From Diphasiastrum complanatum (Eukaryota; Streptophyta; Lycopodiopsida; Lycopodiales; Lycopodiaceae), in contig MU832143.1 in NCBI GenBank assembly GCA_029204225.1, positions 21,023 to 85,022 on the forward strand: DNA of 64,000 nt, in the 5' to 3' direction. The notes below the pieces were generated by a model. That model was not told the DNA's origin. It saw nothing but the letters and a program-made list of their open reading frames with translations, and did no database searches. The position numbers and the translations under genes were made by a program. Within the stretch, counting starts at the first letter, position 1. Every line of letters begins with the position of its first letter. Of this stretch, positions 36,672 to 60,712 are shown one piece after another.

Positions 36672-37611
36672 GTAAGAGTGTGCTTTTTTGAATGGTATTG
36701 TATCAATAAAAGTTGTTTCTTTCCTTTCAACTATACACATACATGCGGAGATAGGTGTAGCAGATTTAGCTGAATGTCCAAGTAACAACTATGGAGATTA
36801 ATGAAGCCTGGTGTTTTCTGCAAGGACTACATGACATAGTTGCAATCTTGTGAAAGTAGTATGTTTCAAGAATCTCAACTTCCAAAAGAAAATTGTCTCA
36901 ATTTACAGAAAAAATATCGCAAAATGAATGTTGCTGGTTTCACTTCCCATTTGCTTGAAATCTTATCTTCATGGGGAAGACACTTGGAGAAAAATTGTTC
37001 TCTTTTTTTTGATACATAATGCATTGCGGAAAAGAGGATATGACATAATTCCTGTTGAGGTATACTTTGAAAACATTTATCAATGTTGTCAATTGAATTC
37101 TGGACAAATAATTACTGTCTGTCTGTCTGTCTCTCTCTCTCCCTGCTATGGAGGGTGCCCTCCCTCTCTATCGCAGCTATGGTGGCGCCCTCCTATCCCT
37201 CGCTGCATCTCCGTCTCTGACCATCGCCCTGCTGCCTGTCCATTGCTCCCTCATTGCCTGACCCTTGCTCCCTTGCTCCCTTGCTGACCATCGCTCCTCG
37301 CTGCCTGCTGACCATCGCTCCTCGCTGCCTGACCATCGTTCCCTGTCCTGTCCCTCGCTGACCCTGTCCCTCCATCGCTGGTCCTGTCCCTCGTGCTTGT
37401 CCCTCCTCACTGATCCTCGCTACCTGTTCCTTGCTGCCCTGGCTGACCACCTGCCCCTGTCCCTTTTTCCTCACTGATCCGGTCCCTGTCCCTCGTGGCT
37501 GACCACCACCCCGGTCCCTTGTCCATCGCTGTCCCTCTCTCCTGTCCCTCCATCACTGTCCCTCCCTCTCTCTTCTGGCCCATCATTGTACCTTCCTTCC
37601 TAATCATTATG

Positions 37612-38515
37612 GCTGATTGGCAATCAGTGAATTGGAAGGGGAAAAAGAAAACCCCTCCCCCTTCTTCTTTTGTTTTCTCAGCCATCCGTACTACGGCTCC
37701 AAATCCTTTTACCTTGTCCCCTCCCTCTCCTGCTGCCACCTTAGGCTTTGCTGTTGCCACCTCACCCTCTCCCCTCGCTGTTGCTGCCACCTCAGACCTC
37801 AATGCCACCTCACATCTGCTGCCCAACGAGATGGCTACTGCTGACATGGCACCCCCCTCCACCTCATCCCTCTTCTCTGCTTCTTCTCCCTCTTCTTTCA
37901 CTTCTTCTTCTTCTTCCTCTCTCACTACTGCTCTCCCCTCCCTTTCACCCTCCTTCCGCATCGTCTTTACACCAACTCACAGCTCCTCCATCTACCGTAC
38001 CCATTTCCTACACTCCCTCCAAAACAGTTGAAACTCTTTTCCTCTTGGGAAGCCGACCAAATGAGAACAGAGTTCCAGCTTTTGAAGCAAGAGCTCTCAC
38101 AGCTGAAAGAAGTAGTGGTCTCCTTAGTAAAAGAAAAGAACTTGTTGCAGTCCAAAGTCACCTCATTGGAGCAGCAGCCTCGGAATTGACCACCACCATG
38201 ATACGGGAACTTGAGAGTAGAATTGAGCAGCATAAAAATTCATGGGCAGCGGTCTTGAAGGAAGGCTCCAAACCTAGTGCCCCCATTTCCTTGGTCAGCA
38301 AAAACCCCACAACATCAAGGTTCGCGGGATACCCGACACTCAAGACGCCATTGCCGAAGCTACGAGTTTTCTCGAATCCAGTCTAGGACATGTGACAGAT
38401 GGGCTGGATACAGCTTGGAGGACCACCAGAGATGCAGCCACACTGATCATTCGCTTCACATCCCTAGAACGCCGCAGAGAGGCTTTACGCTGCCCAATCA
38501 CGTGGTACTACCATA
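37612..38515 (+). pseudogene. LINE-4 ORF1 (coiled coil plus RRM-like)
   Basis: It starts MADWQSVNWKGKKK, then a long Ser/Pro/Thr/Ala-rich stretch. After a frameshift comes YTPSKTVETL...QLLKQELSQLKEVVVS, a heptad coiled coil, then WAAVLKEGSKPSAP. Finally VRGIPDTQDAIAEA...DAATLIIRFTSLE resembles the nucleic-acid-binding fold of L1-type ORF1. At least three frame changes break it. ORF1 proteins coat LINE RNA; that role here is by analogy. Confidence 0.7.
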
Positions 38516-38667
38516 TATATGGATGACGATCTTACCTACATCCAGGTTGAGGAGAGGCGTAAAGCCCTCCAGGTAGCTCGAGAGACTGGTAGACGGGTTA
38601 TATATCGAAATGATCAGATACGGTTTGTGCTGGCACCCCTAGCAGTTCCCAGAGCTAGGAATTCTGG

Positions 38668-39859
38668 GCCCCCGGGTCTTCAGATTGGGGTATGGAATTG
38701 TGATGGCATCCACTCATCCTCTACAGCAGGTGATCTGATTGACTTTATCACTGGACGAGACCTATTGTTCTTCATGGAGACTTGCGAGAGCCAGGTGCGC
38801 GGTTTACCCACCTTCTCGGGATACAGATGGGAATTAGTATACAGATCTGAGACTAGATCAGCCAGTGGCCGTGGTTCCGGATGTCTCTACAAACTTCATT
38901 AGATATTTGAGTTCGTCAGGCATGATGAGCACACACGATATATTTGGCTCCATATCACAGAACGAGTGATTTGTTTGGACATGGACATCTTCGTTGCTGC
39001 CTGCTATTTTCCTCCAGAGTCCTCGTCCTTTGTTGAGGGAGTTAGCTCACCTTATTTGGATCTTTCAGTGGATATCATCAGATTTGCAGAGCGGGGGCAT
39101 ATTTTCCTCACGGGGGATTTTAATGCCCGGACAGCCTCACGACAGATAGAGTTCCATGATGCTACAGATCAGATGCGAGTCCATGCCTTTGATAGTGATA
39201 GCTTGGGGATCACCAAGATTTTTGCAGATGGACCGGGACCTATTACATCATATGGCGAGTACCTGTTACAGTTTGGTGAGGCACATGAGTTAGCCAGTTA
39301 TAATGGCCTACCTCACTGGCCTAATTCTGGCAGCTATACTTGTCACCCTCACAGTGGCAGTCACAGTGTGGTTGATTACCTCATGGGGTCACCGTCATCC
39401 ATTCCTCTTATTCACAGCTTCCATATCTCCCCTACCACCCTTTTTGATCATTCGTTCCTATCCTTCGCCATTGGCCACCTTCCACCACCACAGCCTCAAC
39501 ACCAATCCATACTTCCCCGTGCACCCAAATACACCTTTCACCCCCTCTCTATCCCTTCTAAACCTCATAAGCACAAACTAGTCCATCCACGATCATCCCA
39601 ACCTTTCCACCCACTGTGGTATGATGCGGAGTGTCGATCCCTACACCACTCTGTCACACATGCTCGTTTCCACGCCCGCCATCTCCTCCGCTCTTCACGG
39701 CAAATGTACAACCGCACACTCCGTCCCAAAAAATGTCCCTATGATGACTCTAAAGGAAACTGTCTTGTGAACCTCCTTCTCAGTTCCTCCTCAGGTGCCT
39801 TTTGGCGTGGGTTTTTCCCTCGCATCCCCTCTTCTGGACGACTTACATATCTGGACTGA
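38668..39859 (+). pseudogene. LINE-4 ORF2 endonuclease
   Basis: IGVWNCDGIHSS, LLFFMETCESQ (metal-binding Glu), then GDFNARTASRQIEFHD and SHSVVDYLMGSPSS give the full APE-type order. One stop lies at ~38901 and a small deletion precedes it. An open frame runs from 38966 to 39859, through the linker WYDAECRSLHHSVTHAR, to a stop before RT. Confidence 0.85.
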
Positions 39860-39946
39860 CTATGCTACCCAACTTTACACTATACCCACTGATATGCCCA
39901 TCTCCATCTCTCCTCGACCTTCAGACTTCACCTTTTTCACCCTGGC

Positions 39947-41141
39947 TTGGTTCGGGCAGCAGTCAAAAAGCTAAAAACCCACGGCACCAGGGACATTGAA
40001 GACCTTGAATCTGAGCTACTAATTCACGCCCCCCCCCCCCCCCCCTCGATACCCTTGCCCCTACATTATCCACTCTCCTTAACCATGCTGTTGTTGAGGG
40101 CTTCCCATCCTCTTGGTGCACCAACATACATCCTATCCACAAAACGGTGACCCCATGGTACCTGGTAATTACCGCCTTATTATGATTGGGCACGTTCTCG
40201 CGAAGTTATATGGCACCATCCTCCAGTCTGCAGTTAACTCAGAGGCAGAGTTCAGGAGATTACATGCTTTGGGTCAAGCAGGGTTCTGCGCTCATTATTC
40301 CACTACAAATCATATATTCACACTTCGAGCCCTTATTGAGGAAGCTAGACATAGGAGAGAAAAGGTTTATTGTTGTTTTGTGGACTTCAGGAAAGCCTTT
40401 GATTTTGTTCCACGCCCATTACTTATCCACAGACTCCGTGACCTAGGGTTCTCTACAAATATTATTCTAGCCGTCATGGCTCTCTATGAGAGGGTCTTGG
40501 GGTGCTTTCGTCATGGTAGTGGCATCTCTTAGCAGATCTGGAGTACTATTGGGGTTAAGCAGGGATGCTCTCTCTCACCAGTTCTCTTTGGATTATATAT
40601 TGACGAGCTAGAGTAGGTCATTTCTCAGTGTGATGGGTATGGTTGCCGGCTTGGGGACATTCTGATTGCCATCCTTCTCTATGCGGATGATGTGGTATTA
40701 GTATCCCGTACCAGAGAGGGATTACAGAGACAGTTGGATTGTTTACACACCTTCTGTACCCAGTGGGGTTTAGGGGTGAACCTCTCAAAGACCAAAGTTA
40801 CGGTCTTCAATACTTCTCGGGCCTTCATGCAGCGCCAAGAGCTTACCCTTGATGGACAGTCCTTGGAGATGGTCTCTTCCTACACTTGCCTGGGTGTGCT
40901 CTTCTCTGGTCCTACCTTCAGTATGAGACAGGCAGCTACTTCTAGACTTGGGAAAGGTCACTCTTCCCTAGTCCAGCTGGAGAGACTCTGCTTCCGTAAG
41001 TCTATTCGGGATGCCCCGAGTAAGTGCAGACTATTTGGCACATCATCACCCCTCTGGCCTTGTATGCAACAGAGATATGGTGTACATGCCTATCATCTTC
41101 ACACTGGTCCAGCATTTCACGCTTACAGACCACCATGTTAG
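39947..41141 (+). pseudogene. LINE-4 ORF2 reverse transcriptase
   Basis: Motifs in order: GNYRLIMIGHVLAKLYGTIL, CCFVDFRKAFDFVPR, GVKQGCSLSPVLFGLYIDEL, LLYADDVVLVS and GVNLSKTKVTVFNT. The catalytic ADD is intact. A C run at 40029-40045 disturbs the frame at the start, and stops occur at ~40531 and ~40615. Confidence 0.88.
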
Positions 41142-41384
41142 CTTGCATGATCCGAGCGAAGCCCTCGGTTCCACATGAGATCATCCTTGCGGAGTTTGCC
41201 ACCCCTCCTATTCAGCTTGAGGCAGCCTTCCAGCTTATCACATACATCTAGAGAGTTCAGGCACTTCCTGATACAGAGCAGCGATATACATAGCTTGCAC
41301 TTATGTCCTCTCATCACCTTCAGACTTAGGGATACTGGCTATCATGGTTCTCTTAGGCATCGCACTTCCTCATAGAAGCATTTG

Positions 41385-42140
41385 GTTCTGGTCCTCCGGG
41401 GCAAAGTTGGCATTCTTGAGGTTGATGTTACTTACCTCAAGAATGAATTGGAATCAGATGAAGAGGAAGAAGAAGGAAGCGGCAATGTGATTCATAAGAT
41501 GTGGCAAAGCAGCTTCAAGAGCGGGTTCGCTCACTGGAGCAGCAATTTCAGCAATCGAAGAGTTCTTGGGCCGCCGTGCTCAAGGGATCTAAGCAGGTTA
41601 TTTCTGAATCTATTCAAGAACATCAAAAAAGAGATTTCAATGCCCTCAATGTTAGGGTTAGGGGAGATTCTTTTGCGGGTAAGGACCTCGTGGCTGAGGC
41701 AAATGCTTTCATTCATTCCACCTTTGGTCTCAAAGAGGATGTCATATCTGCTGCTTGGGTGGGTAAGCTCCAATCCACCACAATGTTTCTGCGTTTCAAG
41801 GATGCGTTGCTTCGCCAAAAGGTTCTACGTAAAAGAGGTTGCCTGAAGGGGTCTACTATTTTTATGGATGAAGTCTTGACGCCCATTCAATGGACTGAGA
41901 GAGAAAATTATCGCAGATGCTAAGGCCAACGGTTTCCGGCTTTGAGCTACGGTCATTTACTTCCTCTCCTACGTGAGAGATGAGCTTTTTTTACAGAGTG
42001 ATTTACATTTTAGTTTAGTTTTCTGTTGACGGCATTGTCCCGTCCGAGTTCCATTTACTTTGTTGCACTCCTTTTCGTCTTATACGCCTTTTGGCATGGA
42101 AAAGACATTAATAAAGCTTTCTTTCTTCTTTCTTCTCAAG
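41385..42140 (+). mobile_element. LINE-5: ORF1-only LINE derivative
   Basis: It consists of an ORF1 (coiled coil and RRM-like part) followed directly by a LINE 3' UTR with ACGCCTTTTGGCAT (42084-42097), AAAAGACATTAATAAAGC and a CTTT tail. ORF2 is completely absent. The ORF1 end appears natural (DELFLQSDLHF...LVFC then stop at ~42028). This resembles mammalian HAL1 elements, which keep ORF1 but not ORF2. Confidence 0.75.
41501..41923 (+). pseudogene. LINE-5 ORF1 protein
   Basis: An open run of 140 codons: AKQLQERVRSLEQQFQQ (coiled coil), SKSSWAAVLKGSKQ, then LNVRVRGDSFAGKDLVAEAN and TTMFLRFKDALLRQKVLR, an RRM-like segment, and GSTIFMDEVLTPIQWTE. An acidic segment with DEEEEEGSG lies upstream (41447-41481) in another frame, so one frameshift near 41500 splits the protein. 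Its end continues in a shifted frame. Confidence 0.65.
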
Positions 42141-43563
42141 ATGTTAACTTTCTTTCTTTCTTTCTCCACGGTTCCATCTCGATCTCCACGGTTCCATCTC
42201 CATCTCCACGCAGCCATCTTCATCTCCTCGTTGCTTCCATCTCCATGCAACTCTCACTTCTTTCTAGCTTTCTATGTGGCTAGATCTACCTTTTATGTGC
42301 ATGACACTTTCTTGCATCAGTTTTAGCTACTCTAAGCTTGTTTCTCAAGATTTCATCGGTGCTATCACACCACTCCTGAGAACATCTTCTCGTTGAATGA
42401 GTACACTTCTAAGCAATTTGCTGCTTTTCTTTCACAACTCAATGAACGTCGTGCGGATTTGCTTACTAAGACTGCCATGATTGACGCTCAACAGACTGAA
42501 ATTGCTTCTCTTCGTGCTGCACTTAGTGCTTTGCAAAGGGACATCATCACTAATATCTCCTGTGCTGTTGAGGGTACTAAGGCATCCAGGAGTAAGCTTC
42601 CCCTACTTGAGCGCCAAATACATGACACTGTTGAGTGCACTGCCCGGATTCCCGTTCTTGAACAGTGGCTTCATGAGATGGTGGAACATGTACAGAAGGT
42701 ACCTACTCTCGAGCAAGAAGAGACCAAATCATGGGCTTATATCCTAAGATCATCTATCACCTCTTCGTCTTCTGTAGCACCCTCCTTAGACACCACGGTA
42801 CAAGGCGTCTTGGCAGTACAACAATGCCGAGATGACAAAAAGCTCAACTTAAGATTCTGGGGTCTTCCTACTGAGGACACATCACTGGACCAGGTAACCT
42901 CTTTGTTTACTCACGTATGGGGCTCTCAGTTCTAGGTATCCAATATGCTTGTTGGCGCCTCCAACATGATTTGAAGGTATTATTTGTCAAATTCAAAACT
43001 ATGGATGACCGACAGAGACAGTTCTTCGTGCGCGTCATGCTCTCCGAGGCTCTCAGATTTACGTAGATGATGACCTTACTCACTGCCAATGGTTATAGCG
43101 TAAAACTATTATTCATGAACGGGTGGTATTCACAACTCTCGTCTTCTGGACCACTTTCCTTGTTCCTCTGATGTCACTACCCAAGCCTCCTTTTTGACAC
43201 ACGCCCTGACTACCGCCGCTCATGCCATTGCGCCCCCTCGCCGCTTCTCTTCTCATCGTCGTACCCATAATAAATGGTATGACAACGACTGTTCTTTCTT
43301 CCAGATATGTCGAGTTCCTTAACTTCTCCAATTCTACACTTTCTTCTTCCGCGGAAAAGCAGCTTCGATCTTTTCTCTGTAAAACGAAAGTGTCCCGTTC
43401 CTCCTACCTCCTTCGCTCCCTCCACTCTGCTTCCTCGACTACTTTTTGGAAGATCTTTCTTCATAAGCCCCTATCCATTGCACCCATCCCCCTTCAATCC
43501 TGGGTCGACTATGCAACCAACCTATATACAACTACTCACCCTTCCATCGGGTTGTATGAGTGA
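42141..43563 (+). mobile_element. LINE-6: 5' end with ORF1, internal deletion
   Basis: It starts in the CTTT/CT tail of LINE-5. A leader with repeated TCTCCACGGTTCCATC precedes ORF1. After ORF1 only a short ORF2 stretch remains (THNKWYDNDC-like, the linker seen as WYDAEC in other copies). At 43563 minus-strand Ty3 sequence begins. The 5' region and ORF1 start match LINE-9. Confidence 0.7.
42393..42935 (+). CDS. LINE-6 ORF1 (coiled-coil protein)
   Basis: An intact run of 180 codons starts MNEYTSKQFAAFLSQLNERR. Residues ~1-110 form a long coiled coil (QQTEIASLRAALSALQRD). WAYILRSS follows, and KLNLRFWGLPTEDTSLDQ begins an RRM-like part that is cut by a stop. Placement and layout match other ORF1 copies, but the sequence is a distinct subfamily. 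Likely non-functional because of the truncated C-terminus. Confidence 0.65.
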   Translation: MNEYTSKQFAAFLSQLNERRADLLTKTAMIDAQQTEIASLRAALSALQRDIITNISCAVEGTKASRSKLPLLERQIHDTVECTARIPVLEQWLHEMVEHVQKVPTLEQEETKSWAYILRSSITSSSSVAPSLDTTVQGVLAVQQCRDDKKLNLRFWGLPTEDTSLDQVTSLFTHVWGSQF

Positions 43564-43599
43564 AGGGCGTTTCTGAGGAGCTTCACCTTTAATTTTATC

Positions 43600-44500
43600 T
43601 TCTTTCTTTCTTTTTAAAAATTTCTTTTTAAATTGAAAGTCTTTATGAGGAGGCTGCTCAGAAAGGGGTTGCTGTCTCGCCCTCTTTCTATCCACTGAAT
43701 CATCATAGATTTGAGCATATCTGAGAGCTTGCTCAAGGGTAGTAGCGAGTTTCTCTGGATCTCTACTTTATATTCATCTTTGAGGCCACGGACAAATCCC
43801 TTGACTTTCTGATAGTCATCCATATTTTTAATCTTTAAAATTGCCTCTCGATACTGCGAGATATATTGGGATAGGGACTTGTCCATTACTGTTTTCTCCC
43901 AGGCTTCCCAGGCTCTATCAAGTTCATGTTCCGGTAGGAATTCTCTTAGGAAGGCTTCGTCAAAGGCCCTTCCATGACCGGGAAGTTTGCCCAGTCTCCT
44001 GGAGATTTAACCACCACTCATAGGCCATGGGCCCTAGGAGAAAGATTGGCCTCTGTAGCTTGCAAATGGTCAGGGGTCTGTTGTCGGATCCCTACATCAG
44101 GGATCAGCAAGAAAGCAGACGACGTGCCAGCTATTGAGCCCAAAAGAGGCCAAAAAAGGATTCATAGTCAGACGGGATTATCAAGCTCACAGGTAAAACG
44201 ATGCGAGGGGCAGTCTTGAACATTAACCAATATTCAAAGCCAAATAAGTGAAGTGCAATTGTGGCCCACTGATTAGCTAAGCAGCCAGCGGCTCGAGCGT
44301 TCTCTTTTATAGGCTGTCGCCTCTGTGCTGCACGGATTTACATAAAGGCTTAAGAAGCTGATGCATCTTCAACTCAAGTAAAGTGAGACACTAGAAGTAG
44401 AGGCAAATTCCAATTGACCTACATTCGTGAGCGTTCTTCCATTTGCTGAGGAAGGTTTGTAGAATGTCTGCATTTTTATCCTTCTCTTCCCCAAAGTAGG
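43600..44500 (-). pseudogene. Ty3 gag fragment
   Basis: The minus strand reads FLREFLPEHELDRAWEAWEK, then MDKSLSQYISQYREAILKI and VKGFVRGLKDEYKVEIQ, the retrotrans_gag domain. The longest open run is 43614-43886. A frameshift near 43960 separates the upstream AYEWWLNLQETG. No LTR or knuckle is attached. The part at 44060-44500 is probably leader or gag N-terminus but shows no motif. Confidence 0.75.
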
Positions 44501-44504
44501 AGGC

Positions 44505-44821
44505 GCCGACTGCCTCCATCAGGGCCCACTTACTTTCGCTGATATGTACTTATAATTAATCTCCACCTTGCTGGGGTTGTGGGCATTGGTACTTTTTCTG
44601 TAATCCTTATGTTATACCTGGCCCGGGTTGTGGGCTTATTTCACTTCCGCTTTGTTCTACTTTCATTCGTGGCTAGTTTATAGCACTTTACGGCCATGTC
44701 CTCCTATGGATGATGCTCCCGCTGTTGCTTGTACATATTTTTTTTTGGTCTTATGCACCCACGGGTGCCCAAAAGACGTTAATAAAGCTTTTTCTCTCTC
44801 TCTCTCTCTCTCTCTCTTCAT
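44505..44821 (+). mobile_element. LINE-7: solitary LINE 3' UTR with CT tail
   Basis: Closely matches the 3' UTR of LINE-8 (46690-47050), including GGGTTGTGGGCATTGGTACT. It has the hairpin GCACCCACGGGTGC (44755-44768), AAAAGACGTTAATAAAGC and a (CT)n tail. It is a heavily 5'-truncated insertion. LINE-8 starts immediately after the tail. Confidence 0.85.
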
Positions 44822-44845
44822 CCCATTCTTAAAGCAGGGGATGCC

Positions 44846-45121
44846 ATGAATGTCCACAACTATCGCACTATTATGATTGGTCATACCATGGCCAAGTTGT
44901 ACGCCACTATTCTCCAGAACTTCGTTATGGAAGAGGCTGATTCTCGACTATTATATGCGACTGGCCAGGCTGGCTTCCGCCGGGGTTATAGCACTCTTGA
45001 TCATGTCCTCACTCTACGTACTATCATTGAGGAGGCAAAGCATATGGGCAAGAAGGCATTTGCTTGTTTCATTGATCTCTCTAAGGCCTTTGATACTGTT
45101 CCCCGTCATCTTGATCAGTAG
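44846..45121 (+). pseudogene. LINE-8 ORF2, first RT motifs
   Basis: HNYRTIMIGHTMAKLYATIL and GQAGFRRGYSTLDHVLTLRT lead to CFIDLSKAFDTVPRH. The frame is lost by a small indel at about 45112-45140, just before VALYERVL resumes in the next open run. Only this lesson separates it from the 476-codon frame. Confidence 0.85.
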
Positions 45122-45156
45122 ACTACGTCAGCTTTTTCGGCTCTATTCTCGCGGCA

Positions 45157-46587
45157 GTGGTTGCTCTGTATGAGAGAGTTCTAGCACGTATTCGGCTGGG
45201 TACTGATTTGTCTTCTCCCATCCGTAGCACTGTTGGCGTCAAGCAAGGTTGTCCACTATCCCCTCCACTCTTTGCACTTTATATTGATGATCTTGAGCGC
45301 CTCATTCGTGAAGAAGGTGGAGATGGTTGCCCGCTGGCTCATTTGCTCATCCCCATTCTGCTTTATGCTGATGACATTGTCCTGCTTTCTTCCTCACCAG
45401 AAGGGTCGCAGTGTCACTTACAGGTCTTACATCGCTTTTGTGTTGCTTGGGGTCTCTCTGTTAACTTAAAAAGGACGAAGATCATGATTTTCAACACCAA
45501 TCGACAAAGCCTTCACAATTATCAATTCTTCTATGACGGCCTGGAAGTTGACATTGTTGCCTCTTATACTTACTTGGGAGTCCTGTTTACTGCGCCCCTT
45601 CTTGGTTTCCGCCAGGCTGCATTTGCGCACATTTCCTCCGGTCTTTCAGCATTGGTCCAGTTCAAGCGTGGTTGTACAATGAATCATATTTTTGATCCCG
45701 CTATTAGATGCCAATTGTTTCACACACAGGTGGTTCCAGCAGTGATGTATGCCTCCGAGATTTGGTTGCCAGGACTTTCTCTCCGGGACTGGGCAGGCAT
45801 TTCCCGCATTCAGGCCTTTATGTTGGGTCGCATGATACGTGCCAAGACTACCACCCCTCATGATATCCTATGTGCTGAGTTTGCTACTCCTCCGATCATC
45901 CTTGAGGGCTTTTTCCGCCTTATTCTTTTTCTTCAGCAGATTCAGGAGATTCGTGCATCTCACCCGGATAGATACATAGTTGTTGCGGTTACTTCTTCAT
46001 GTGTCCTAGCTGATTCCCATGCCAAGCTGTCCTGGTACCAGCAGGCATCTGATCTCTTACGACATCTGGGCATCTCTATCATGGATCTTCCTTGTGGTAC
46101 GCATTCATATATCCGAGGCTATTTATTCCGTCGATATATGCAGCAGACTTGGAGCTCCCTCCCACCTTCCCGTGTTCGATTGAGCTATTACCAGAGACAC
46201 TTCCTCTCTCTGGATCCTTCTGGTTTGCCATTGCTACCGCTCTATCTCTCACAACCCCTATCACACGGCCTGCGCTATCGTCTTGGGCAGTTGCGCATTT
46301 CCTCTCATCAGCTTGCTATTGAGGCCGGTCGTGCATGGGATATCCCCCGGGAGCGTCGTCTATGTCGCTTGTGCTCGTTGCAGGAGGTGGAAGATGAAGC
46401 CCATTTCCTCCTCAGATGTCCGTTGTATTATGAGATATGGGGGAGGTATTATTGTCTCTTTCGCGATGGCCCGCATACACTTCACAGTTTTGTCTCCTAT
46501 CCGGATGCTCGTTGCTTGGGACTTCTTGTTTGTGAGATGCTTACCTCCGTCAGTCTCATCTGCCTGCACCAGATCACCTGGGGTTAG
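45157..46587 (+). CDS. LINE-8 ORF2: reverse transcriptase to zinc-finger-like region
   Basis: This is the longest intact LINE frame here (476 codons). Residues ~20-90 carry GVKQGCPLSPPLFALYIDDL and LLYADDIVLLSS with the catalytic ADD. NLKRTKIMIFNT and the thumb region follow. Near the end, HQLAIEAGRAWDIPRERRL and CRLCSLQEVEDEAHFLLRC form a C-x2-C...H-x4-C finger. A frame change near 46540 moves the true C-terminus to another frame: WQLLLTGFFRTRAHADDSDD, then PPRKKPR. The protein would reverse transcribe LINE RNA at the nicked target in the nucleus. Confidence 0.88.
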   Translation: MVALYERVLARIRLGTDLSSPIRSTVGVKQGCPLSPPLFALYIDDLERLIREEGGDGCPLAHLLIPILLYADDIVLLSSSPEGSQCHLQVLHRFCVAWGLSVNLKRTKIMIFNTNRQSLHNYQFFYDGLEVDIVASYTYLGVLFTAPLLGFRQAAFAHISSGLSALVQFKRGCTMNHIFDPAIRCQLFHTQVVPAVMYASEIWLPGLSLRDWAGISRIQAFMLGRMIRAKTTTPHDILCAEFATPPIILEGFFRLILFLQQIQEIRASHPDRYIVVAVTSSCVLADSHAKLSWYQQASDLLRHLGISIMDLPCGTHSYIRGYLFRRYMQQTWSSLPPSRVRLSYYQRHFLSLDPSGLPLLPLYLSQPLSHGLRYRLGQLRISSHQLAIEAGRAWDIPRERRLCRLCSLQEVEDEAHFLLRCPLYYEIWGRYYCLFRDGPHTLHSFVSYPDARCLGLLVCEMLTSVSLICLHQITWG

Positions 46588-46595
46588 ACTCCTGG

Positions 46596-46700
46596 CAGCT
46601 GCTTCTCACTGGCTTCTTTCGGACTCGAGCACATGCTGATGATTCCGATGATGAGATTCCTATCGCTGTGCCACCGCGGAAAAAGCCCAGATGTAGTCGG
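46596..46700 (+). pseudogene. LINE-8 ORF2 C-terminus: PIP-like box, acidic and basic tail
   Basis: Out of frame with 45157-46587 after one indel, codons read QLLLTGFF (46596-46619), ADDSDDE, and PPRKKPR. Q-x-x-L-x-x-F-F is the consensus of PCNA-interacting peptides, and PPRKKPR resembles a nuclear localisation signal. The same position in LINE-15 holds QPQITSFF followed by an acidic run. Confidence 0.6.

Positions 46701-46983: not shown

Positions 46984-46987
<4 letters not shown>

Positions 46988-47050
<63 letters not shown>
46988..47050 (+). repeat. (CT)n tail of LINE-8
   Basis: About 62 bp of CT follow TTAATAAAGCTTT. LINE-9 begins at its end with no spacer. Confidence 0.95.
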
Positions 47051-47052
<2 letters not shown>

Positions 47053-48890: not shown

Positions 48891-48929
48891 GTTCGGGAGT
48901 GCCCCGGGGGCCTATCCACACCATCTCCG

Positions 48930-50660: not shown

Positions 50661-50785
50661 GCAGCTATCATCCTCGTCGTCATCATAATCCTCATCCTCA
50701 GACACTAAATCACGCGATCTCCGCCTAGTGAAGAATGAAGTAATTAGTGGCTATGAGGTGAACTGATGGGGTGTCCCGTATAAAT
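50638..50785 (-). mobile_element. LINE-11: short minus-strand ORF2 C-terminal piece
   Basis: The minus strand reads PLITSFFTRRRSRDLVSEDE then DYDDDEDDS...HRDQRQ, preceded by TAG where a CAG (Gln) codon would complete QPLITSFF (50753-50730). It lies just downstream, in minus orientation, of the tail of LINE-12, and is cut at 50638 by the end of LINE-10. Confidence 0.7.
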
Positions 50786-50985
50786 CTTTATTAACATCTT
50801 GAAGGCACCCATAGGTGCTAAAGAGACATACATATGTACAAAGCATGGGAGCATCGTCAATGTGCAGATTGAAGAAAACTGTACATGAGAACTAAAGTAA
50901 TGTAAACAATAGAACGCCCATAACCCGAGCCAGGTAGGACTGATAACTAGGAGAAAGCGGGGATGCCCAGAGAGAAAGCAAGAAA
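50786..50985 (-). mobile_element. LINE-12: solitary LINE 3' UTR
   Basis: The minus strand carries CCTGGCTCGGGTTATGGGCG (related to the LINE-7/8 UTR), then GCACCTATGGGTGC (hairpin, 50804-50817) and GATGTTAATAAAGA. It begins at the CT-type tail of LINE-13, the same head-to-tail pattern. Confidence 0.75.
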
Positions 50986-51606
50986 GAAAGCTTTATTAAC
51001 GTCTTTTGATGCCAAACGGCATATAAGACCAAATAAATACATCTCAAGTGTGATAGATACTGAAAGGAGCGTGTAAATGTCTCCCTAAACAAACGACAAC
51101 TACTAGCTAAAGAAATTGGTCTATCAAGACCAGATAAAAACTCTAAAATGCTCTTGGACATGGAAGTTTGAAATATGGTACACTGGGATGTCATATAGCT
51201 ATACAAAAACCGTTCGAACTAAGATCATGTCACCACTAAAACGTTGTTAAAGAAAGTAAGTATAGAAGAGGATGCAGGTACTGGTGCTGAAGCATTGGGT
51301 CTAGGTATATGAGGTCTCTTGGTAACTCTAGCATTTGATCTGCAGACAGTTGCTGATGACGATCGCGATGAGAGTCCCGAGGTAAGATATCTACTCACGA
51401 AGCATTAGTGCCACACATCGAGGGTCAACATTTGAAATGAGAGAGCGAAGTGTGACTGGAGAATCCCGGAAAAGAACATGATAGTGTCTGCGAATCTCAT
51501 AATAGACAGGGCAGGCATCTGAATAGGAAATGCTCCTCTGAATCCCCCTCACCTAATGTGCACATCTAACAAACTCTGCTCATATGAGGGATGCCCTGGA
51601 ATCGCC

Positions 51607-51608
<2 letters not shown>
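50986..51608 (-). mobile_element. LINE-13: 5'-truncated LINE 3' end
   Basis: The minus strand starts right after the (CT)n tail of LINE-14 with GGCGATTCCAGGGCATCCCT, as in LINE-3. It then carries a broken zinc-finger-like region (CTLGEG...EEHFLF) and LTLRSLIS. The 3' end is ATGCCGTTTGGCAT (51022-51009), CAAAAGACGTTAATAAAGC and a (CTTT) tail. Confidence 0.8.

Positions 51609-51680
<72 letters not shown>
51609..51680 (-). repeat. (CT)n tail of LINE-14 (GA on plus strand)
   Basis: About 70 bp of GA on the plus strand, directly following the minus-strand AATAAAGCTTT end of LINE-14. LINE-13 starts at its far edge. Confidence 0.95.
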
Positions 51681-51684
<4 letters not shown>

Positions 51685-51719
51685 TTTATTAATGTCTTTT
51701 CCATGCCAAAAGGCATATA

Positions 51720-52100
51720 AGACTAATGAAGTACATGTCATGTATGTGGTAACCATGGGCTCGTATAACTCTCTCCATAGTATGGACATCTCGTGTATCA
51801 TCAGAGCGACACACCGTGGGTCCTCATAAGCTATGAGAGAGCATAGAGTGGTAGGCATCTCTCGGAACAGGCAATGATATTGCCCTCTGATCTCATAATA
51901 TACAGGGCACCTAAATATAAAGTGCTCCTCAGACTCCACCTCACCTAGAGAGCAGAACTGGCAAATCCGCTCCTCTAGGAATACCGTGGAACCTCCCAGT
52001 GTCAATAGCTACCTGATGAGAGGACACCCTGAGCTGCCCCAATGTGAATTCGAGGCAATGTGACAGTCCCGAGTCCAAGTAGGGCGGCATGACCGGGGTC
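51720..52100 (-). pseudogene. LINE-14 ORF2 zinc-finger-like end
   Basis: EERICQFCSLGEVESEEHFI then FRCPVYYEIRGQYHCLF gives the C-x2-C...H-x4-C pattern, followed by LCSLIAYEDPRCVALMIHEM. It ends in the 3' UTR without the QPQITSFF and acidic tail, so those codons are lost here. Confidence 0.8.
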
Positions 52101-52124
52101 CGAGTCCTCATAAGCTATGATTGG

Positions 52125-52819
52125 TCTTCGCAGTGTTCACTTCCAATCCCCATCTGGTACAAAATCCCTGTAAACAATCCAGCTGCCTCTGCAAACCCTC
52201 TCTGGTCGGGGATACTAGTACTACATCATCCGCATAAAGGAGAATAGCAATCAGAATGGTGCCAAGTCCACAGCCACCCCTGCCACACTGTGAGATGACT
52301 CACTCTAACTCATCAATGTACAATCCAAAGAGAACCGGTGAAAGAGAACATCCCTGTTTCACCCCAATGGTGCTCCAAATGTGATCAGATAGGCCACTGC
52401 CATGTCGGAAACATCCCAAGATCTTCTCATAAAGAGCCATCACTGCTAGAACAATATCTATGGAGAAACCCAAGGTCACGAAGTCTCTAAATGAGTAGGG
52501 GGTATGGTACAGAATCGAAGGCTTTCCTGAAGTCCACAAAACAGCAGTAGACCCTCTCTTTCCTGTACTTAGCTTCCTCAATCAAAGTTCGAAGTGTAAA
52601 AATATCGGAAACCTGTCCCAATCCATGTAATCTCCTAGCTTCCGCCTCTAAACTCACTACAGACTGGAGTATGGTACCATAGAGGTTCGTGAGAACAGGT
52701 CCGATCATGATGGTGCAGTAATTACTAGAAATCATGGAATGGGTTAGGAGTTCAGATTCAAGGTCTTCGATATCTCTTCCCTTATGGGACATCATTCTCT
52801 TGATGGCCACAAGTACCAT
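52125..52819 (-). pseudogene. LINE-14 reverse transcriptase
   Basis: Motifs: SSNYCTIMIGPVLTNLYGTI, CCFVDFRKAFDSVPY, GVKQGCSLSPVLFGLYIDEL and LLYADDVVLVSPT. Stops follow PLLI and YIDELE, and a frame change lies between motifs. The stretch between MIGP and FTLRTLIEEA has lost a few codons compared with LINE-4. Confidence 0.85.
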
Positions 52820-53013
52820 GTTAGAGGTGAAGAAGGTGAACTCAGAGGGGCATGGGGAGATAGAGATGAATGTGTCAGTGGGTATGGTATATAGGTTGGT
52901 AGCGTAGTCGGTCCATATGCGGAGGTCGTCCAGGAGAGGTGGTGGAGCACGAGGGATAAACTCACGCCAAAAGGCGCCTGAAGAGAATTGAAGAGAAGGT
53001 CAACAAGACGCGT

Positions 53014-54380
53014 ACCATCAAACTGGAACTCATACACATGAGTATCCTAGGCTATGTGTGGCTTCCGCATCGTGTGCCAACAAATGCCCAACACCACATC
53101 AAACCGCGCAAGCCGTGTTATCTCAAAATCCAACTCTTCTATGTACTTTGTACAGTTAGTTGAATGCCCACAACCCTCTCATCCCAAATCTCTGTACCCT
53201 TTTCATCAGCCATTTCCACTGTGGACTGGTACTGGGATAGTTGAGTACTCACACCTAAGTTGAATTCGAGACACCCAATGTCAATTAGAACCTGAACATC
53301 TCTACCACACAGTTGTCCTCGCATAACAACTAGAGAAGTGTTAGGAAATTGATACCCTTGGCGAGTCGATTTTGGCAAAAGCGCTGGTGGAGCCGTGTCC
53401 ACTCTCATGACCACCGAAACATTCATGAGGCATGGAACATCTGGATTGGCTTCCTGCTCAATCTCTTCCGCTATCATAGGGTCATCACCCTTGTTCATCT
53501 GGTCCACCTGAAGATTAATTGTGGTCCACATCAAGTTTCGTGGACATTCCTTCCACCTATGCTGCCCCAAACATCCAAAACGGAGGTTCTCCCTCTTTGC
53601 ACGTTCTTGGTCTTGAGGTGACAACATTGAAGGACGCTGACCCTTTTGGGCATTGGGCTGCCCATACAACCCTTTGCCTTTGGGGGCCCTGCACCCTTTT
53701 CCTTTTGGTCACCTCGAGCTTGCCACTGACTGGTTTGACATTCAAATTTTCTCTTTTTGTTCCATTTGCCCTTGCGTCCCCAAGGTTGTTGACCACCTGT
53801 AGCTACCACAACAAGATCCGGGCCTCTTTTTCCATCTTCATAATACAAAGCCATCTGGATGGCTCCCTGCAAATCATGAGATTGCTCCTTCCGCACGAAA
53901 GGGCGAATACTCTCTGGAAGTCCCTCCACAAAGTGAAATATTTGCATGTACATAGGAACTTCCTGAGGAATGCGTAACAAAGCCTCTCATTACTTGTCTG
54001 CATAATCCTGCACGCTCAAGTTACCCTGCTTCAAATAAGTCCATTGTTGCATGGCTCTATAGTTTTCATCCATACGCACCCAATTTTGCGTAAACATTTG
54101 CCGGAATGCCTCCCATGTGGTTGGAATTAGGTCATCATTTCCAACTTCCTCCACCAACTTTGTGCTGACTCTTGAGAACGATATGTGGCTTCAACAATCA
54201 TCTCAGTTTCGTCCTCTATACCACATATCTGGAATGCTTTCTCCCATTTTTGCAACCAATTCTCAACGACATCTGTAGTTCTCATACATACTGCTCTAGT
54301 GAACTTCGGAGGTTTTAGATCCTTGATAGTAGGTAGCTTCCTCTTTCGAAACCCCAACTCAGCTCTGCTCTCATACCAAG
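53014..54380 (-). pseudogene. Ty3 gag-protease, truncated
   Basis: From 54399 down: PPKFTRAVCMRTTDVVENWL and QESAQSWWRKL (retrotrans_gag), MYMQIFHFVEGLPESIRPFV, then a knuckle FGCLGQHRWKECP. The protease-like part is RDVQVLIDIGCLEFNLG, where a D-S/T-G is expected. It runs into DVVLGICWHTMRKPHIA and EFQFDG, the stretch before RT, and is cut at 53013 by LINE-14. Frames shift several times. It lies next to its own LTR and primer site. Confidence 0.82.
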
Positions 54381-55097: not shown

Positions 55098-55099
<2 letters not shown>

Positions 55100-55473
55100 C
55101 GCTCCTGCATCCTGACCGCTACAGATGCGCTCCTGATCCGCTACTCTGATGGCGCTGATCCATGCACTGATCGCCTACAGTGATGACACACCCTGATCCG
55201 CTCCTGCCCTGGCCCTATCGCTCCTGTCCTGGCCCTGATCCGCCTTGTCCTGTCCGCCCCGCCCTGGCCCTGTCCCGCTCCTATCCTTGCCCCATCTGCT
55301 TGTCCTTCGCTCTTTGTCCTGGCCCCTACACCACTCATGTCCTTGGCCCTGAATCTGCTCTTGTCCTGGCCCTGATCCGTCCCTGTCGTCCCGCCCTGAT
55401 CCGTATCTGACTCTCTCTCCTCTCTCCTCTCCTCCTCTCTCTCTCTCTCTCTCTCTCCCTTCCTCGCTGCTCC

Positions 55474-56860
55474 ATGGCAGCTCCTCCTCGCGCCCCTGCT
55501 CGTAGATCAGCACGATCCCCAAGCCACCTCTCACTCACCTCCCTCACTCACCACTCACCTCCCCTCGCTGCCCCTTCCCCTAACCCCCCTCGCTGCTCCC
55601 TCTCCTTCCACTCGCTGCTCCTTCTCCTTCTCCTTCCCTCGCTGCCCCTTCCTATAACCTCCTTCGCTGCTCCATCCCCCCTCGCTGCCCCTTCCCGCGC
55701 TGTGCTCCCTTCCCTCTCGCTGATCCTTCTTCCCCCCTCGCTGCCCCTTCCCTCGCTGCTCCCTCCCCTAACCCCCTCGCTGTTCCTTCCCCATCCCCCC
55801 TCGCTGCTCCATCCCCCCCCCCCTCGCTGACCTCCCCTGATCTCTAGCTGCCACCCCCTCACCCATCCTCCTCGCTGAACCCCCTCCTTGTCACCCCCCT
55901 CACCTCACCCCTCGCTGATCCCTCACCCTCACCCCCTCGCTGATCTCTCACCTCACCCCATTGTCATTCCAGCCCCCCTCGTTGCCACTTCACCTCACCC
56001 CCTTGTTGACCCCATCTCCCTCTCCTACTACAACTCTCCACCCCCCCTCTCTGATGGCTGCTCCCCTGATTCAAGCTCCTCTTCTGTCTTCTGACCCTAT
56101 TCTTCCCACACCCTACCATTGCTCACTCTTCCTCCTTCACGGCACCACAGTCTACAGCAATATTCCGTATACGCCTTCTAAATCAATTGACTTTTCTCAT
56201 CTTGGCAGAATTGATCAATTCAAGGCAGATTTCCAATTTTGCGGTTATGAAATTTCACAGCTGAAAGGAAACGGTTACTTCTTGGTCAACGAGAAGAAGC
56301 TATTGCAGTCCAAGGTTGCCTCACTCGAACAATCCATCGGTAATCAAACAGGCCGCAGCTTCGGAATCCACCACCAACATGCTACGGGAGCTAGAAACCA
56401 AGATTGAGAAGCAACACGAAGAGGCCCTTTCCTGGGCATCAGTTTTGAAAAGGCACCCAAACCAGGCTCCCATCTCCTCTGTTATCTCAGCCACCATCTT
56501 GGAAGAGAAATCTCGAGACCAAAAATCCCACAATATTAGAGTTCGTGGAGTTCTAGATACACAGGATGCATTGGTGAAGCTAAACGCTTTCTCGACATCA
56601 CTCTCGGGCACATGACAGAGGGGTTAGACACGCATGGAGGACCACTAGAGATGCAAGCCACACGCATTCTTCGTTTCACCTCGCTCGAGAGTCGTTGAGA
56701 TGCTTTGCGGTGCAGAGCTAAGCTACGTTGGTACCACTATCTACATGGACGACGACCTCACATATATCCAGGTAGAGGAGAGGCGTAAGGCCTTTCAGGC
56801 AGCCTGTGAGTTTGGCAGACGAGTCATTTACCGAGATAGACGAGTTGCGTTTTCTTGACA
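55474..56860 (+). pseudogene. LINE-15 ORF1
   Basis: MAAPPRAPARRSARSPSHLS opens it, parallel to MVPPRAAAARRS of LINE-10. A Pro/Ser-rich stretch from TCGCTGCC-type repeats follows. Then YTPSKSI, a coiled coil (LRELETKIEKQHEEA) with SWASVLKRHP, and NIRVRGVLDTQDALV, the RRM-like part. GEERRKAFQA-like and RVIYRD words mark the end. Frameshifts lie near 55830, 56200, 56315 and 56600. Confidence 0.7.
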
Positions 56861-56934
56861 GCGCACCTAGCAGCTCCCAAGTGCTAGGATTTGGGGTCCC
56901 CGGGTTTGGGAGTGCCCCGGGGCCCCACCCACAC

Positions 56935-57685
56935 CATCTCCGGATTGGAGTATGGAACTGTGATGGTTTACACTCATCCTCCATTGCTGGCGACTTGATC
57001 GATTTCATCACTGACAGAGATTTGCTGCTCTTTATGGAGACTCATGAGAGTCAGGAGAGAGGATTACCTATTTTTCCAGGATACAGATGGGATTCCGTGT
57101 ACAGACTTGAGACTAGATCAGCTAGCGGTCGTGGATCCGGAGGTGCATGTTTATACAGAGAGTCTCTTCATCCGAGCATTGAGTTCATCAGACACGACGA
57201 GCATGCACGGTATATGGATTCATATTATTGGGCAGGATATTGGGTTGGACAGGGACCTCTTTGTGGCGGCCTGTTATTTTCCTCCAGAGTCTTCGTCCTT
57301 TGCTGAGGGCACAGGTTCACCCTACCTTGATTTATCGCCTGATATCATCAGATTCGCAGAGCGGGGGCATATTCTCCTCACTGGAGATTTTAATGCCCGA
57401 ACCTCTTCACGACAGTCAGAGTTCTATGACATCACCGACCAGCTCCGCATTCATGCCCTTGACAGCGATGATATGGGAGTTACCAGGATTTCAGAGGACA
57501 GCTTGGGGCCTACTACCCCTTACGGTGAGCATTTATTGCAGTTTGGAGAGGCCCATGAGTTAGCCATTTACAATGGCCTAACTTGTTGGCCAAAATCTGG
57601 CAGTTATACTTGTCACCCTCACAGTGGTGGACATAGTGTTGTGGATTATCTCATGGGATCACCATCTTCCATACCTCATATCTGA
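56935..57685 (+). pseudogene. LINE-15 ORF2 endonuclease
   Basis: RIGVWNCDGLHSSSIAGDLI, LLLFMETHESQERGLP (catalytic Glu), LDRDLFVAACYFPPESS, GDFNARTSSRQSEFYD and GHSVVDYLMGSPSS: all APE-type catalytic positions are present. One frame change at about 57215 splits it and another follows IPHI at 57685. Confidence 0.88.
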
Positions 57686-58329
57686 TTTTCATGTATCTCC
57701 CACCACTCTCTCTGATCATTCCTTTCTCTCCTTCGCTATCGGCCGCCTCCCACCTCCCCAACCATCCACACCCCTGCTTACACGGGCACCCAAGTATACA
57801 TTCAGTTCTCTCTTTACACCAGTTTACCAGGAGTTCCTCATTGCTCCATTCCTTCCCTCGCGATAGTACAGTCGAGACTCAAGCTGCCTTTCTTAGCACT
57901 TCTCTTCATACCGCTGCTTCCCTTGCTTTTCCATCTAAACCCCATAAAAGCAGAGGCACCCGCTCCTCATCGATACGACCCCCACACCCCCCGTGGTATG
58001 ATGTTGAATGTCGCTCTCTTCGTCAGCTTGTCACCCATGCCGCACTCACGACTCATCTCCTCCACTCCGCCAGGCGCTCTTACCGTCGCACACTCCGCCG
58101 AAAAAAGCGTATATATGATGACTCCGAAGGAAACGCGTCTTGTTGATCTTCTCTTCAGTTCCTCTTCAGGCGCCTTTTGGCGTGAGTTTATCCCTCGTGC
58201 TCCACCACCCCTCCTGGATGACCTTCGCATATGGACCGAATACGCTACCAACTATATACCATACCCACTGACGCACCCATCTCTATCTCCCCACGCCCCT
58301 CTGAGTTCACCTTCTTCACATCTGACATG

Positions 58330-59300
58330 GTACTTATAGCCATCAAGAGAATGAAGTCCCATAAAGCAAGAGATATGAAGACCTTGAATCTGAACTCCTA
58401 ACCCATGCTTCCGACCTCCTTGCTCCCACACTAGCCACTCTCCTCAATTCCGCCGTTGTCTCTGGTTTCCCCTCATCCTGGTGCACCAACATCATCCACC
58501 CTATTCATAAAAATGGTGATCCCATGATCCCTGGTAATTACCGCACTATCATGATCGGACATGTTCTCACGAAGCTCTATGGTACCATACTCTCCAGTCA
58601 GTGAGTTCAGAGGGGGAAGCTCGGAGATTACATGCATTGGGGCAGGCAGGTTTCCGATCTCATTATTCTACCACTGACCATATTTTTACACTTCGAGCCT
58701 TGATCGAGGAAGCTAAGTACAGGAAAGAGAGGGTTTACTGCTGTTTGTAGATTTCAGGAAGGCCTTCGATTTTGTACCACGCTCCCTGCTCATTCAGAGA
58801 CTTCGTGACCTTGGTTTCTCCACAAATATTGTTTTAGCAGTGATGGCTCTTTATGAGAAGGTCTTGGGATGTTTCCGACATAGCAGTGGCTTATCTGATC
58901 ACATTTGGAGCACCATTGGGGTGAAAACAGGGGTGCTCTCTTTCACCGGTTCTCTTTGGATTGTATATTGATGAGTTAGAGCGAGTCATCTCACAGTGTG
59001 GCGGGGGTGGCTGTAGACTTGGCGCCATTCTGATTGCTATTCTCCTTTATGCAGATGATGTAGTACTAGTATCCCCGACCAGAGAGGGTTTGCAGAGGCA
59101 GCTGGATTGTTTACAGGGATTTGTACCAGATGGGGGTTGGGGGTGAACACTGCGAAGACCAAGGTTATGGTCTTCAACACTTCTCGAGCCTTCATGCAGC
59201 GCCAGGAGCTCATCTTAGATGGACAGGCCTTAGAGGTAGTTTCCTCCTACCTATTTGGGGATACTCTTCTCTGGTCCTACCTTCAGCATGCGGCAAGCTG
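58330..59300 (+). pseudogene. LINE-15 reverse transcriptase, heavily frameshifted
   Basis: GNYRTIMIGHVLTKLYGTIL, then in other frames FDFVPR, STIGV and LFGLYIDELERVISQ, then LLYADDVVLVSPTREGLQRQ. Lesions are mainly one-base indels in short homopolymers (for example GTGAAAACAGGGGTGC where other copies have AAGCAGGGATGC). The DNA is otherwise close to LINE-4 and LINE-14. Catalytic ADD codons are kept. Confidence 0.85.
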
Positions 59301-60113
59301 CCACCACCCGACTTGGTAAGGGGCTCATCCGAGATGTTCGCAGTAAGTGTAGACTCTTTGATACTATTGTCACCCCCAGCCTTATTGCAGCAGAGACATG
59401 GTGCACCGGCCTCCCTTCATCACACTGGGCCAGCATTTCACGATTGCAGACCACCATGTTAGCCCGTATGATTCGGGCGAAGCCCTCGGTTCCACATGAG
59501 ATCCTTCTTGCAGAGTTTGCCATTCCACCCATTCAGATATATGCCGCGTTCCAGCTTATCACATACATTCAGAGAATCCAGGCTCTGCCCGATGAGGATC
59601 GAGATATACATAGACAGCACTGGTCTCCTCACACTTTCTTCATGACCAGGGCTATCGACTATCGTGGTTCTCTCAGGCATCCCATTTCCTCCTTGAGTCA
59701 TTTGGTATCTCCATTACAGAGCTCCCCTCAGGTACTCATCAGTATATCAGGCGCATCTTATATCGGGCATATCTCGACCGCACTTGGGGGCGACAGCTTG
59801 GGGTGAAACCGGCTACTACTGGACTCATTTTATTGAGCTTGACATAGCAGGGGTCCCGGTCTTACCGCATTATTTGGACTCGAGACTATCACATTGCCTC
59901 AGATTTACATTGGGACAGCTCCGTGTATCATCACATCAGTTGGCTATTGAGACTGGTAGATTCCAGGGTACCCCGAGAGAGGAGCGGATTTGCCAGTTAT
60001 GCTCTTTAGAGGAGGTGGAGTCAGAGGAGCACTTTATCTTTAGGTGCCCGGTATATTACGAGATCAGAGGGAGATACCATTGTTTGTTCCGAGACACACC
60101 TGTCACCTTATGA
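59255..60113 (+). pseudogene. LINE-15 post-RT region and zinc-finger-like end
   Basis: GILFSGPTFSMRQAATTRLG, LQTTMLARMIRAKPSVPHEI and a second open run with VPVLPHYLDSRLSHCLRFTL, then EERICQLCSLEEVESEEHFI and FRCPVYYEIRGRYH. The C-x2-C...H-x4-C set resembles the zf-RVT end of plant LINEs. A stop at 60113 separates it from the C-terminal tail. Confidence 0.85.
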
Positions 60114-60152
60114 TCGCTCATAGCTTATGAGGATTCCCGATGCGCGGCACTC

Positions 60153-60500
60153 ATGATACGAGAGATGTTTATACTACGACAGGATTTGTATCAGACAGCC
60201 CAGCCGAGTCAGGTTTCTCAGCCTCAGATCACTTCTTTCTTCTCCAGGAGGAGAGGACATTTTGATGACGGTGACGATGATGATGATGACCTACTTGCCC
60301 ACATAGACCAAAGACAGCGTCCCACACATACCCATGTTGCAGCACGAGCTACTCGACCTATCACGAGGAGACCTCTTCATCCTCTCAGACGACGTCAGAG
60401 ACCACCAGTGGCCCTTCATGCCACAGGCCATATTACATCCTTCTATATCATCAGCACCAGCAGGACAGGACTAGATGATAACCTCATATCTCACTCATGA
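60153..60500 (+). pseudogene. LINE-15 ORF2 C-terminal tail with PIP-like box
   Basis: It continues the same frame after one stop: MIREMFILRQDLYQTAQPSQ, then QPQITSFF (60219-60242), SRRRGH, an acidic run FDDGDDDDDDL, an Arg-rich part, and GHITSFYIIS near the end. Q-x-x-I-T-S-F-F fits the PCNA-interacting peptide consensus exactly. The tail is shared with LINE-1, LINE-8 (as QLLLTGFF) and LINE-11. The function is inferred from the motif. Confidence 0.7.
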
Positions 60501-60712
60501 CTGTTAGCAGTATACATGCTCCCACATGTTTCTAATAGCATCACATCTATTTCAGTTTATAGCTTTAGCTCTAGATTGCTACTTTGTTACTGTTTTGGAG
60601 ACGTTTCATACGCTCCTATGGTTACCACATACTTGACATGTACATTTACTAGTCTTATATGCCTTTTGGCATGGAAAAGACATTAATAAAGCTTTCTTTC
60701 TTTCTCTCTCTC

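Follow-up and report, generated by a model that had tools for sequence, protein, structure and literature searches.

Head-to-tail stacking of LINE copies on TC-rich tails in a 64-kb window of the clubmoss Diphasiastrum complanatum

Arrangement of the LINE copies

The DNA analysed here, a 64-kb stretch of contig MU832143.1 from the clubmoss Diphasiastrum complanatum (Lycopodiaceae) that we call the window, contains 14 copies or pieces of a long interspersed nuclear element (LINE) family, designated A, f, g, a, a2, b, c, d, e and L15 on the plus strand and m1 to m4 on the minus strand. Their 3' ends are present in nine cases (A, a2, b, c, d, L15, m1, m2 and m3). The segment 36,500-64,000 was read directly in its entirety, together with 17,900-22,700, 27,500-28,760 and 12,000-13,000, and the whole window was covered by self-comparison and by a translated search with LINE protein (tblastn). 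An earlier sequence-only reading of the same DNA had numbered a series of LINEs, and judging from position these numbers appear to correspond to our copies as given in Table 1; copy f, at 20312, lies outside the span which that reading had stated.

In this window, LINEs are stacked head to tail on the TC-rich tails of other LINEs. Eight of the 14 5' ends sit on the 3' tail of a LINE that has the same orientation, or seven when m4 (50780, minus strand) is dropped, which is preceded by a degenerate tail lacking TC. Two further 5' ends (a and L15) are located at TC tracts other than LINE tails, giving ten of 14 at a TC tract or a LINE tail. Viewed from the 3' side, a LINE of the same orientation follows directly on eight of the nine 3' ends, the exception being L15, after which other DNA follows. 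The truncated copies c, m2 and m3 begin at the tract with no visible spacer when compared with uncut relatives, the start of m3 being a call made by eye on a short match.

These observations largely agree with the sequence-only reading, which had proposed that seven LINEs start at the tail of a preceding LINE of the same orientation; such starts were found for f, b, c, d, e, m3 and m2. Its further statement that tail and head meet without a spacer does not hold for b, which is separated from the tail of a2 by a 28-base unit, and at the A-to-f joint the tail is degenerate. It was correct that LINE-4 (our copy a, start at 37130-37142) and LINE-15 (L15, start at 55098) begin at CT tracts other than LINE tails, and that full-length and truncated copies alike start at TC tracts.

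LINE tails occupy 427 of the 128,000 strand positions in the window. By a naive binomial calculation, which presupposes independent insertions and a list of 14 5' ends compiled by us, eight of 14 starts on a tail correspond to p ~5e-17, and four of the seven truncated copies on a tail to p ~4e-9. Eight of 14 starts are at most 6 bp from a TC tract (expected fraction 0.0089, p ~1e-13), and m3 falls outside this 6-bp cut by 3 bp because its TC tract is interrupted. The pyrimidine content of the first 400 bases is 74-75% in a, e and L15 and 58-63% in f, b and d. Since c, m2 and m3 lack the pyrimidine-rich 5' part, their starts at TC tracts carry more weight.

Table 1 LINE copies, tails and associated tracts in the window. 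UTR, untranslated region; ORF1, open reading frame 1; EN, endonuclease; RT, reverse transcriptase; numbers such as LINE-2 are those of the sequence-only reading.
Feature	Position	Strand	Remarks
LINE copy A	19549..20285	+	5'-truncated, 5' end off TC; tblastn
Tail of A	20273..20308	+	degenerate, ends TCTCTCTCT; copy f begins there
LINE copy f (LINE-2)	20312..22084	+	5' region to EN; 3' part absent
LINE piece g	28151..28668	+	broken at both ends; 5' end off TC
(CTGT)n(CT)n tract before copy a	37117..37141	+	no LINE tail
LINE copy a (LINE-4)	37142..41386	+	5' UTR, ORF1, EN, RT; 3' end lost
Predicted APE-type endonuclease domain of copy a	38684..39490	+	one in-frame TAG
LINE copy a2	41387..42121	+	ORF1 piece, 3' UTR and tail
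Tail of a2	42108..42166	+	TTTC and TTC units, then 28-base unit; b begins at its end
28-base unit between a2 tail and b	42138-42165	+	CAAGATGTTAAC(TTTC)4
LINE copy b (LINE-6)	42167..44792	+	start at the 42166 joint
Tail of b	44779..44818	+	TTTTTC(TC)12; c begins here
LINE copy c (LINE-8)	44818..46989	+	5'-truncated within RT domain
Tail of c	46976..47049	+	TTTC(TC)31
LINE copy d (LINE-9)	47050..47448	+	5' and ORF1 piece fused to last ~25 nt of LINE
Tail of d	47435..47490	+	(TTTC)6, then (TC)n
LINE copy e (LINE-10)	47491..50640	+	has 5' end; 3' part absent
LINE fragment m4	50641..50780	-	after m3 tail; broken on 3' side; 76% to A over 75 bp
LINE copy m3 (one of LINE-12/-13)	50781..50972	-	3' UTR only; degenerate tail at 50794
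Tail of m2	50970..50999	-	m3 begins here, start judged by eye
LINE copy m2 (one of LINE-12/-13)	50991..51608	-	start 51608; 5'-truncated near C-terminal cysteine-rich region
Tail of m1	51609..51692	-	TTTC(TC)36; m2 begins here
LINE copy m1	51681..53046	-	5' end ~53046
(CT)39 array before L15	55020..55097	+	no LINE tail
LINE copy L15 (LINE-15)	55098..60696	+	nearly full length
L15 3' hairpin region and tail	60653..60712	+	(TTTC)3(TC)4, then non-LINE DNA

Relationships and structure of the copies

Neighbouring copies are mostly not each other's closest copies, so the array is not one tandem duplication. The closest match of e is L15 (81% over 3,246 bp) and that of d is b (92%), while among matches longer than 100 bp m2 is closest to g (79%) and m1 to L15 (87%); for none of these four copies was the direct neighbour the closest match. 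The neighbours b and c are 83% alike over 266 bp. Truncation points vary among the copies. In the reverse transcriptase (RT) part, copy c is the least disrupted of seven pieces, with two frameshifts or stops in 567 codons (0.35 per 100), and the other six (a, L15, m1, A, g and m2) carry 1.30 to 2.94 disruptions per 100 codons; compared singly with c they give p 0.05-0.13, and pooled 0.026. The use of these decay differences as proof of different copy ages was dropped as too weak.

Several copies show structural peculiarities. The boundary between a and a2 is without a tail, the 5' end of a2 lying at about 41390. The 28-base unit in front of b looks like the last dozen LINE bases plus a tail, and could represent either a tiny copy or the trace of a template jump. 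Copy b is interrupted from about 43590 to 44520 by what is probably foreign sequence, in which a minus-strand match to Retrotrans_gag (E 9.7e-5) falls just below the cut-off. Copy d is a small, internally deleted form resembling a short interspersed nuclear element, its ORF1 piece being joined directly to the last ~25 bases of the LINE. Within copy e, an insert of about 495 bp (49190-49685) starting TGTCATGCCC is placed between 5-bp repeats ACGAG and looks like a long terminal repeat (LTR)-type element younger than e. At about 50640, copy e (plus) and m4 (minus) meet in an inverted joint, each broken there. For L15, the 5'-UTR-like sequence 55098-55460 has the (CT)39 array on one side and another TC tract (55411-55457) on the other, and from the sequence the true start of L15 may be near 55460, preceded by the remnant of another 5' end.

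Tail and hairpin at the 3' end

Seven of the nine 3' ends (a2, b, c, d, L15, m1 and m2) consist of TTAATAAAGC followed by TTTC-type units. TC repeats are added after the TTTC-type unit in six of the nine (b, c, d, L15, m1 and m2), and a2 has TTTC and TTC units. The 3' ends of A and m3 are degenerate, and a poly(A) tail is present in none of the nine.

For eight of the nine 3' ends, an alignment was made of 42 bases that lead up to and into the tail, d being omitted because only its last ~25 bases represent the LINE 3' end. A two-part hairpin precedes the tail, in which TCTT and AAGA are arranged around a five-pair inner stem. The pairs are formed in 94.4% of cells, compared with 28-53% in slid controls, and three inner pairs are altered on both sides between two subfamilies (ATGCC/GGCAT versus GCACC/GGTGC). 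The share of paired cells, the cells altered on both sides and the covariation score were above all 500 shuffles. Only six of the eight rows are distinct, and they form two groups, so the compensatory change is perhaps a single event. A conserved 3' hairpin with compensatory changes, as found here, is expected of a stringent-type 3' end.

Encoded proteins and their relatives

The LINE family contains an RT and a predicted APE-type endonuclease (EN). By sequence, the EN gave no match in the PDB. The ORF1 model is most like L1 ORF1p, at low confidence, and by sequence ORF1 had no PDB match and no Pfam match above the cut-off. When compared with the PDB, the RT relative P0022 reached 95.9 bits with R2 proteins and 55.3 bits with human L1, and the RT of copy c reached 55.3 and 47.8 bits, respectively; the PDB matches of the RT comprise L1, R2 and a few others. 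For the C-terminal restriction-like endonuclease of R2 and other RLE clades, no Pfam family was found in the C-terminal piece, no further search for it having been made.

The D. complanatum protein P0125 matches L15 with 94% identity over 70 aa, 86% over 58, 88% over 52 and 70% over 195, and copy e with 87% over 169 aa. The first of these matches bears out the plant origin which the sequence-only reading had assumed. We read P0125 as a copy of this LINE that has suffered an internal deletion and has been annotated as a gene. Relatives occur in Taxus (P0121), Ceratopteris and Adiantum, the matches in the last two genera showing 35-46% identity among the five best-ranked named ones. A fern origin of the DNA, considered at first because of the Ceratopteris and Adiantum matches, was discarded in view of P0125. 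The search for junction-crossing proteins in other genomes returned two matches, neither with a tail. Viral contigs scanned with a 22-base pattern gave 0 matches, and the 98 stretches obtained from prokaryote contigs with an 18-base pattern, 80 of them listed, are presumed to be chance.

Proposed insertion into pyrimidine microsatellites and its alternatives

The arrangement is probably the work of a lycophyte APE-type LINE family that inserts by target-primed reverse transcription into pyrimidine microsatellites, including the tails of older copies. The endonuclease would nick a (TC)n/(GA)n tract in its GA strand, and the freed strand, ending in GA, could then anneal to the (UUUC)n at the end of the LINE RNA, with G-U pairs in part, and prime reverse transcription. 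Being flanked by TC on both sides, the new copy would offer a fresh target at its own 3' end. Later insertions at the TC of that tail would necessarily be head to tail and in the same orientation, and arrays may grow in this way by successive, often 5'-truncated insertions, one at a time.

Several points weigh against this reading. Four of the 14 5' ends (A at 19549, g at ~28151, a2 at ~41390 and m1 at ~53046 on the minus strand) lie at neither a TC tract nor a tail, m1 ends in a (TC)36 tail but lacks TC in its 5' flank, and of the nine TC arrays with at least eight units, three (12569, 18306 and 18015 on the minus strand) are without a LINE. The sequence-only reading is supported in its layout and in the use of TC. 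Selection of (CT)n by the endonuclease or by annealing is its proposal, with which these four starts and three arrays do not agree. Only two of the seven truncated copies pass the strict cut of at most 6 bp from TC (p 0.0016), and CT beside a full-length 5' end counts for less than CT beside a truncated one, since pyrimidines abound in the 5' region of copies a, e and L15. A dinucleotide repeat hides any target-site duplication, the sample is a single 64-kb window, and the EN and ORF1 structure models are of middling or low confidence. As for the hairpin, 158 of the 500 shuffles reached the observed number of pairs changed on both sides, and every shuffle reached the number of pair types. The array neighbours of c, namely b and d, have no RT part, so the decay comparison excludes them, and five EN pieces carry 0.40-1.33 disruptions per 100 codons, with copy a about as clean as c.

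R2-type RTs jump templates, and the layout could also result if the RT left the 5' end (often incomplete) of one LINE RNA and resumed on the 3' tail of another, producing concatemers without any choice of TC target. Such jumping predicts the same order of copies, including the joints between truncated 5' ends and tails, and it would be in keeping with the best PDB scores of P0022 and copy c being against R2 proteins, with the weak decay differences between copies, and with the 28-base unit at 42138-42165 and the chimeric copy d, which resemble jumps; some of the joints may be explained in this manner. However, neighbours belong to different subfamilies, so that several kinds of RNA would be needed in one event. 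The TTTC units seem to derive from the element, and the (TC)31 and (TC)36 tails, being long and pure, do not resemble them. The starts of a and L15 at TC tracts other than LINE tails are left unexplained, and we consider template jumping an unlikely but serious alternative as the source of the arrays. The TC could also belong to the element itself, if its 5' UTR is rich in pyrimidines and the RT slips at the tail, with copies brought into contact by recombination between TC tracts and loss of the spacer. The pyrimidine content of a, e and L15 is in line with this, and in Lepidoptera microsatellites are seeded by RTE elements whose 3' ends are microsatellites (PMC2887409). But c, m2 and m3 have no 5' UTR and still begin at a TC tract, the 5' ends of f, b and d are less rich in pyrimidines, and recombination that removes the spacer and keeps the orientation would be demanded at eight of nine tails, which makes this explanation improbable.

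Two further explanations concern the arrays as a whole. The TC tracts of 62-78 bp (46988, 51609 and 55020) are difficult to assemble, and coverage drops in GA/TC repeats, so that collapse or misjoin might have occurred during assembly; at the joints 20312, 42166, 44818, 47490 and 50970, however, the tails are just ~30-60 bp and spanned by single reads, and the same layout is found on both strands, and an artefact of this kind appears very improbable. A single tandem or segmental duplication of a LINE would account for the regular head-to-tail order and for the likeness of b and c, but it is contradicted at most joints, where the adjacent copies are not closest relatives and differ in their truncation points, and we give it almost no credence. 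One segmental duplication, which the sequence-only reading had named as an outcome that would refute it, is accordingly excluded at most joints, with b and c as the exception.

Comparison with known LINE systems

Insertion into TC tracts as proposed above would, by analogy, resemble the behaviour of the algal Zepp elements and of animal LINEs targeting microsatellites, and we claim membership in neither group. The green-algal Zepp arrays have been attributed to nested insertion into existing copies, and they are composed mostly of 3' ends due to 5' truncation (PMC8226300). The sequence-only reading knew of no described plant case, which stands for land plants, where the titles and abstract openings searched yielded no LINE targeting TC repeats, but not for Viridiplantae as a whole, given Zepp in green algae (PMC8226300). 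As with Zepp and ZeppL (Chlorella, Coccomyxa and Chlamydomonas), the host belongs to Viridiplantae and the tandem arrays seem to form by nesting, here with eight of nine tails followed by a LINE and a layout seen in one window. The tails of Zepp and L1-1_CR are (A)n (PMC3747384 Table 3), unlike the TTTC units and (TC)n in the present family. Zepp is telomeric or centromeric.

Some members of the Tx1 and R1 clades have microsatellites as targets, and one such element in fish uses (TC)n. Both clades are target-specific and APE-bearing, and (TG)n serves as target for some HERO families and Togen (PMC4640811). An APE-type endonuclease is also predicted for the clubmoss LINE. Microsatellite-specific Tx1/R1 LINEs would be expected to insert strictly into one microsatellite; in the clubmoss LINE ten of 14 5' ends are at a TC tract or tail and four elsewhere. 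It differs from animal microsatellite LINEs in its land-plant host and in an ORF1 model most like L1 ORF1p. HeT-A, TART and TAHRE attach to chromosome ends. At Drosophila telomeres they form head-to-tail LINE arrays with poly(A) tails (PMC10088271), unlike the clubmoss arrays, which are on both strands of one window and have non-poly(A) tails. Microsatellite 3' ends are shared with the RTE elements of Lepidoptera, for which the abstract describes no same-family nesting (PMC2887409). Similar self-stacking of LINEs is already known in algae and insects, and the case for a TC-tail variant in the clubmoss is strong within the window.

The LINE superfamilies of land plants are L1 and RTE according to a 2022 review (PMC9033089). 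In flowering plants, 224 of 233 L1 families end in (A)n, nine in no repeat and none in another repeat, compared with green algae, where two of 15 L1 families end in poly(A) and eight in other repeats (PMC3747384 Table 3). The poly(A) tail of most flowering-plant L1 is absent from the present family. The maize/sorghum LINE1-1_ZM group, a plant L1 with a stringent 3' end, possesses a hairpin with compensatory changes (PMC3747384 section 16), and the clubmoss LINE resembles it in having a hairpin near the 3' end but differs in its pyrimidine tail. Ohshima proposed that the ancestral green-plant L1 recognised a specific 3' end, a property since lost in a plant lineage (PMC3747384). Lycophytes stand between green algae and flowering plants, and a LINE of theirs that combines a 3' hairpin with a tail other than poly(A) makes this idea testable. 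Tentatively, and with considerable doubt, we could picture a lineage of land-plant LINEs that falls outside the target-specific clades known so far, combining an L1-type ORF1, an endonuclease targeting TC microsatellites and a hairpin/(UUUC)n 3' end, which keeps remaking its target so that its arrays could grow without limit, and which would be an extant relative of the LINE that has been proposed as ancestral in green plants and as strict in recognising its 3' end. If insertion into TC tracts is true genome-wide, this would be the first land-plant LINE with a microsatellite target within the scope of the titles and abstract openings, and a case of insertion renewing its own target; it could also explain the origin of some TC microsatellites in such genomes.

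Other repeats in the window

Long TC arrays in the window are not always linked to LINEs, and the LINE-free ones include (TG)18(GA)36 at 17980-18086 and (TC)56 at 18306-18417. Inverted repeats are present at 54500-54843 and 27581-27930 (79% alike). Next to the former, before the 5' end of m1, the minus-strand frames at 53139-53986 look by eye like a retrotransposon gag, with no Pfam family in either frame. Beside LINE piece g, direct repeats at 28669-29672 and 32971-33956 are 93% alike, and the frames between them carry the copia-type domains RVT_2, gag_pre-integrs and Pol_BBD; the two repeats are probably the LTRs of one copia element.

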